Assembly: GCA_029882355.1 (NCBI GenBank) | Contig: JAOUKV010000003.1 | Coordinates: 62,001 to 126,000, forward strand | Direction of reading: 5' to 3' | DNA: 64,000 nt | DNA from: Gammaproteobacteria bacterium | GTDB taxonomy: Bacteria; Pseudomonadota; Gammaproteobacteria; SZUA-229 | Shown here: one piece after another, positions 32,181-32,922 of the stretch | Layout: the number at the start of each line of letters is the position of its first letter | How positions within the stretch are numbered: position 1 is the first letter of the stretch | Notes under the pieces: model-generated | The model's database searches: none | Seen by the model: the letters and a program-made list of their open reading frames with translations, nothing else | What the model was told of the DNA's origin: nothing | Translations under genes and position numbers: made by a program

Positions 32181-32618
32181 TTATACCTGCAACCAGAAAG
32201 TCACAGGACCATCATTAATTAGCTCTACCGCCATATCAGCACCAAACCTTCCGGTCTGTACCTGCGGTATTTGCTGACTCATTATATCAACAACCGCGGC
32301 AAATAAATCAGCTGCTTGCCCTGGTGGCGCTGTCGATGAAAAACTCGGGCGTTTGCCCTTATTAGTATCAGCAGCCAGCGTGAATTGCGGCACCAATAAG
32401 ACTTCTCCTGCAATATCTAGCACACTTAAGTTCATCTTGCCGTCATCGTCGGAAAAAACTCGATATTCCAGCAGTTTTTTTACCAGCCGCTCAGCCTGCT
32501 CACGGCTATCGTTCTTTTCTACACCCACTAGCACCATCAGACCCTTATCAATTTCTGCGATACAATTTTCATTTACCGTCACTGAGGCGCGGGTCACACG
32601 CTGAAGCAAACCAATCAT
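32181..32618 (-). CDS. dtd: D-aminoacyl-tRNA deacylase
   Basis: A 145-residue protein: [22 protein letters not shown]-like stretch [19 protein letters not shown], and [11 protein letters not shown] (Gly-cisPro-type motif). It removes D-amino acids from tRNA. It leads the dtd-his-tat minus-strand run. Its promoter region is shared with the GacA-type palindrome at 32658-32675. Confidence 0.94.
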
Positions 32619-32657: not shown

Positions 32658-32675
32658 TGTAGGAATAGTCCTACA
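32658..32675. promoter_or_regulatory. GacA/UvrY-type upstream activating palindrome
   Basis: TGTAGGAATAGTCCTACA is an 18-base palindrome with seven-base perfect arms. It fits the GacA/UvrY box form TGTAAG-N6-CTTACA with one compensating change in each arm. Its centre is about 66 bases upstream of the predicted RNA start at about 32734. There is no T run, so a terminator role is unlikely. Confidence 0.75.
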
Positions 32676-32720
32676 ACACATAGCCCAAACCACTGATAGC
32701 ATGATATTAACCTCAGGCAC

Positions 32721-32727
32721 ATAATAC
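32721..32727 (+). promoter_or_regulatory. Candidate -10 element of the Csr/Rsm RNA
   Basis: ATAATAC, with no good -35 at the correct distance (around 32698-32703). That fits a promoter that depends on an activator bound at the upstream palindrome. Confidence 0.4.
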
Positions 32728-32733
32728 CTCACA

Positions 32734-32922
32734 AGGACAAAGGGAAAGAGTCACTAAAGGAAATAGGGAAATAACGTAGCATCAGTTTATATCAAGGATA
32801 AGGAATAAAGGACTAATTAAGATTTAAAGGATGAACCCAAAGGAACAAAACGGACTGCTATAGCGCGAGACTCATCACCAATCAAGGAAGGTCACAAACC
32901 CCGGTTTACCGGGGTTTTTTTT
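32734..32922 (+). ncRNA. Csr/Rsm-family regulatory RNA that binds CsrA/RsmA (candidate)
   Basis: The 320-base gap between dtd and ttcA holds no ORF. From about 32734 to the terminator there are eleven GGA triplets, at 32735, 32743, 32759, 32767, 32796, 32802, 32810, 32829, 32842, 32852 and 32886, mostly in AGGA or AGGGA context. This is the hallmark of CsrB, RsmY and RsmZ RNAs, which titrate the translational repressor CsrA/RsmA. A GacA-type box lies upstream and a strong intrinsic terminator ends it. Length is about 190 bases, between RsmY/Z and CsrB. The exact start is estimated. It diverges from dtd and converges on ttcA. Confidence 0.82.
32896..32922 (+). terminator. Rho-independent terminator of the Csr/Rsm RNA
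   Basis: AAACCCCGG-TTTA-CCGGGGTTT stem-loop with eight T on the plus strand. On the minus strand the tail is only TTTG, so it mainly serves the plus-strand RNA, since no plus-strand ORF precedes it. It may partly serve ttcA too. Confidence 0.9.

Follow-up and report, generated by a model that had tools for sequence, protein, structure and literature searches.

The gap between dtd and ttcA in the 64,000-nucleotide stretch of DNA analysed here (the window) raises the question of whether it harbours an unannotated regulatory RNA of the Csr/Rsm type, as a sequence-only reading of the region had proposed. Both flanking genes are encoded on the minus strand, dtd at 32181-32618 and ttcA from 32939. 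The eleven GGA triplets which that reading claimed within about 190 bases are borne out by counting, and occur on the plus strand between 32735 and 32888 (starts at 32735, 32743, 32759, 32767, 32796, 32802, 32810, 32829, 32842, 32852 and 32886). They had been described as mostly AGGA or AGGGA, and all eleven fit ANGGA, the predicted CsrA-type binding motif, a context equalled by none of 20,000 dinucleotide shuffles. Per 190 bases, the window averages 1.6 GGA triplets on the plus and 2.0 on the minus strand, and its maximum of eleven is reached only at the dtd–ttcA gap. While a single one of 20,000 mononucleotide shuffles of the segment reaches this count, 147 of 20,000 dinucleotide shuffles do so (p about 0.007), reflecting an enrichment of GG and GA as such; taken alone, the GGA count is only moderately rare given the local dinucleotides.

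An intrinsic terminator with eight T residues had also been noted. It is borne out at 32896-32922 on the plus strand as a strong terminator whose stem of 9 bp encloses a 4-nt loop and whose T8 tract occupies 32915-32922; no coding gene ends there, since dtd and ttcA both lie on the minus strand. The gap is likewise devoid of ORFs of at least 60 amino acids, as first read, and none of its few ORFs of 22-35 amino acids spans the RNA. The predicted sRNA gene, of about 190 nt, extends on the plus strand from an approximate start at 32730-32734 to 32922 (32730-32922) and matches R1, a covariance model built from relatives and from this sequence itself, at 173 bits (E 5.6e-41). A search for a plasmid match found none.

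Putative promoter and Gac box

A palindrome of the form TGTAGG-N6-CCTACA, TGTAGGAATAGTCCTACA, is located on the plus strand at 32658-32675, precedes the modelled 5' end of the RNA by 72 bp and represents a putative upstream activating site for UvrY/GacA (Gac box). It differs by a symmetric A-to-G/T-to-C change from TGTAAGN6CTTACA, the GacA/UvrY box of the csrB/rsm genes, which is reported upstream of csrB1 and csrB2 in Shewanella (PMC3171408) and of RsmX/Y/Z (PMC11837529). Besides TGTAGGAATAGTCCTACA, neither the window nor the complete genome (2.88 Mb) contains a sequence that fits TGTARGN6CYTACA exactly; with up to one mismatch allowed, a match is found in 22 of 100 shuffled windows.

Downstream of the palindrome, the hexamer CATAAT at 32720-32725 (plus strand) is the predicted -10 element, and the RNA would therefore start near 32730–32734. 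The hexamer is invariant in 18 of 18 aligned loci, an alignment which was anchored on it, and in a few of the copies identified with the model it is not found in exact form at its predicted position. The conserved CTGATAGC at 32693-32700 (plus strand) may serve as the -35 region, and almost all of the 18 relatives have a CTGATRGY-like element some 20 bp before the -10 hexamer. The CATAAT promoter was missed by a promoter scan because no TTGACA-like -35 element is present there, and activator-dependent promoters often lack such an element.

Conservation in the family

Counterparts of the RNA locus were identified in relatives by DNA search, and the R1 model matches 44 of the 54 genomes of the same GTDB family, including 20 of the 22 near-complete ones. 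A search at the level of the order returned the same 54 genomes, while in a 274-genome sample of the class the matches comprise family members and two borderline hits in G139. G139, whose two hits are L190 and L191 (E about 0.009), belongs to a different family of the class. Most genomes, including the source genome, carry a single copy, and two copies are present in G012, G013 and G015, which are three genomes of the genus g2. Two partial matches in G006 both derive from one place. In the source genome, a second GGA-rich locus lacking a Gac box might have escaped detection.

The 18 full loci can be aligned from the box through to the terminator, and the first four GGA triplets are invariant in all 18. 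Conservation averages 90% in the GGA columns versus 68% in the other columns outside the helices and terminator. The GGA motifs are thus kept at the same place in relatives, a point on which the first reading had made its proposal depend, and each full-length copy examined contains 10-17 of them, mostly in ANGGA context. The terminator stem is also retained in relatives, with changes on both sides. This pattern bears on whether the gap is simply purine-rich intergenic DNA in which GGA triplets have accumulated by chance, and whose terminator serves ttcA. The dinucleotide shuffles that attain the GGA count and the proximity of the stem to the 3' end of ttcA would fit such an origin, which is nevertheless already contradicted by the conservation of box, -10 element, GGA triplets, helices and terminator over 12 genera. 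In addition, an lpxL-like gene replaces ttcA downstream in other genera, and read on the minus strand the stem has no more than three T residues after it, so that chance has hardly any probability as an explanation.

The Gac box is present in all 32 full-length copies examined, exactly in 28 and with one mismatch in four. Its distance to the model start is 65–73 bp in most copies, the exceptions being L184, L186, L187 and L189 with 93–94 bp; in these four, which belong to the genera g7, g8 and g14, the box is situated about 22 bp, or two helical turns, further upstream than in the other genera. The RNA gene usually lies beside dtd, and in the window the palindrome, which has no direction of its own, lies upstream of dtd with only 40 bp between it and the start of that gene. 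On these grounds the palindrome together with the GGA-rich DNA might belong to the promoter or leader of dtd, a divergently oriented gene, and not to an sRNA gene. The spacing between box and RNA is, however, fixed where the distance to dtd varies, and the GGA triplets, -10 element and terminator all point away from dtd. Box and RNA also remain together in L186 and L189, where about 1 kb separates them from dtd, and in L177, the second copy of G012, which lacks all of the flanking genes and yet retains the box with one mismatch. This persistence without a nearby dtd is a strong argument against a dtd leader, which is considered highly improbable. Aside from L177, G012 also carries L025.

Predicted structure and the conserved 3' block

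Two long-range helices, with the consensus GAGYC/GRCTC and GUAGC/GCUAY, are predicted to close the GGA-bearing arms. The 5' side of helix P1 (GAGTC, 32748-32752, plus strand) has its partner at 32869-32873. In the unfitted alignment A1, 95.6% of the P1 cells are paired and one pair changes from UA to CG on both sides. The 5' side of helix P2 (GTAGC, 32776-32780, plus strand) would pair with GCTAT at 32857-32861; the helix is mostly invariant in A1, with 96% of cells paired, and varies on both sides in A2, the alignment fitted to the model. A2 contains more such changes but is biased towards its own structure. Sliding the partner lowers the share of paired cells in the unfitted alignment from 96% to 22–42%. 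As the alignment members derive mostly from two genera, the observed changes represent few independent events.

Folding had been suggested as a test of whether the GGA motifs sit in hairpin loops, and it places most of them in single-stranded stretches instead: their predicted mean unpaired probability in L171 is 0.69 versus 0.57 for all bases, and they fall mostly outside hairpin loops. The single-sequence fold of the RNA is no better than those of shuffled sequences (z -0.64), which is usual for a GGA-rich sponge, yet provides no structural support.

The 3' part of the RNA contains a highly conserved block, GCTATAGCGCGAGACTCATCACCAATCAAGGA, at 32857-32888 on the plus strand, with a conservation of 0.82-0.94 per 10-base step from 32860. 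The 3' strands of both helices fall within it, as does a predicted unpaired stretch, ATCACCAA. The segment at 32873-32883, CATCACCAAT, is likewise strongly conserved and predicted to be unpaired. The marked conservation of ATCACCAA is what might be expected of an Hfq-type non-coding RNA that pairs chiefly with mRNAs and whose GGA triplets are Shine-Dalgarno-like decoys or incidental, and the sroD model also scores 26.8 bits on the RNA, below threshold and largely by way of the terminator. Such an RNA does not need the repeats, whereas 10-17 GGA triplets, mostly ANGGA, together with a Gac box in every full-length copy constitute the signature of CsrA sequestration, and a chiefly base-pairing function appears very unlikely. 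A somewhat less remote, though still doubtful, proposition is that the 3' block (AGCGCGAGrCTCATCACCAA) has a second conserved function besides CsrA sequestration, as a base-pairing seed or a decay or processing site; if so, the RNA would be a dual-function Csr RNA.

Relation to known Csr RNAs and the Gac–Csr system

The sequence-only reading had suggested the Rfam CsrB, CsrC, RsmX, RsmY and RsmZ models as a check, and in this detail the outcome departs from that reading, with none of these models matching the window at gathering threshold. The RsmY model reaches 18.0 bits on the RNA against a cut-off of 57, and the CsrB model finds nothing in the source genome; among 14 control genomes it has matches in five (E. 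coli being the first listed), above the cut-off in one. Neither in the window nor among 17 relative loci does any Rfam family reach threshold for the RNA, the single match being a tRNA. Weak hits to sroD and to the rnk and rimP leaders, obtained at E values of up to 10, rest largely on the generic terminator and were rejected. On its anatomy, the predicted RNA would be a member of the CsrB/RsmZ functional class, while it falls in no catalogued sequence family. With no Rfam CsrB or RsmX/Y/Z model at threshold, it is therefore regarded as a probable new, lineage-specific member of the CsrA-sequestering sRNAs, and Rfam appears to miss Csr sRNAs outside model groups.

CsrB and CsrC of E. coli, RsmX, RsmY and RsmZ of Pseudomonas and CsrB1 and CsrB2 of Shewanella are similarly non-coding, with many GGA triplets, their own terminator and csrA in the genome. 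The window RNA differs from these in having no detectable sequence-family relation to them, in its TGTAGGN6CCTACA box, in GGA motifs that are predicted to be mostly single-stranded and closed by two long-range helices, and in its occurrence beside dtd as a single copy in most genomes. There is precedent for a lineage-confined Csr RNA without similarity to CsrB in the Pf1 sRNA of Pseudoalteromonas fuliginea, which was shown to act on the Csr system and has a putative GacA box, dense GGA motifs and no significant sequence identity to E. coli CsrB; its authors observed that Csr RNAs differ greatly between genera (PMC9927453). The window RNA is also confined to one lineage and combines a Gac box with dense GGA motifs, whereas Pf1, restricted to Pseudoalteromonas, has 21 GGA triplets and more elaborate loops, and has been tested experimentally where the window RNA is known from sequence.

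The Gac box, -10 element and conserved 5'-to-3' architecture lend strong support to the Csr/Rsm-type reading, and the locus very probably encodes a single-copy, GacS/GacA-activated sRNA of the CsrB/RsmZ functional class, its transcription, GacA dependence, CsrA binding and CsrA sequestration being predicted. Phosphorylated GacA would bind the palindrome at 32658-32675 and turn on a sigma-70-type promoter, giving rise to an RNA of roughly 190 nt, ended by its own terminator, that may display about ten ANGGA sites, mostly in single strands, on a long-range two-helix scaffold. Several dimers of the master regulator CsrA would be bound by this RNA and so removed from their target mRNAs. A family known from unnamed, metagenome-derived genomes would thereby gain a likely output RNA of the Gac–Csr system. 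The alignment and covariance model provide a candidate family for RNA libraries. Annotation may follow a simple recipe in which a Gac box roughly 70 bp ahead of the transcript start is combined with a CATAAT promoter, closely packed ANGGA motifs and then a terminator.

Components of this system are encoded in the source genome. A hybrid kinase with the domain order sCache_4-HAMP-HisKA-HATPase-REC-Hpt has BarA as its best match and is BarA/GacS-like, its score of 630 bits lying below the equivalog cut-off of 890. GacA-like regulators occur in the majority of relatives, among them five members of the genus, with approximate identities of 46-57%; GacA of the relative G044 scores 259 bits against an NCBIfam cut-off of 280. 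No gacA was found in the source assembly, which is rated 98.5% complete and in which uvrC was also undetected. In G044 (L148), gacA and uvrC are grouped with a uracil-DNA-glycosylase-like gene, as named by sequence reading and, for gacA, also by NCBIfam. Because uvrC is missing as well, and gacA is near uvrC in G044, both absences most likely reflect a gap in the assembly. Two further candidates for GacA, L124 and L122, were rejected, with approximate identities of 32–36% and scores below the UvrY/GacA cut-off, L122 being nearer to NarL. A csrA gene, whose presence the Csr/Rsm-type reading had called for, occurs in the source genome between a gene taken to be lysC, from sequence reading, and tRNA-Ser/tRNA-Arg. 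It is canonical, with residues 1-56 of its product nearly identical to a PDB chain which, likewise from sequence reading, is presumed to be E. coli CsrA.
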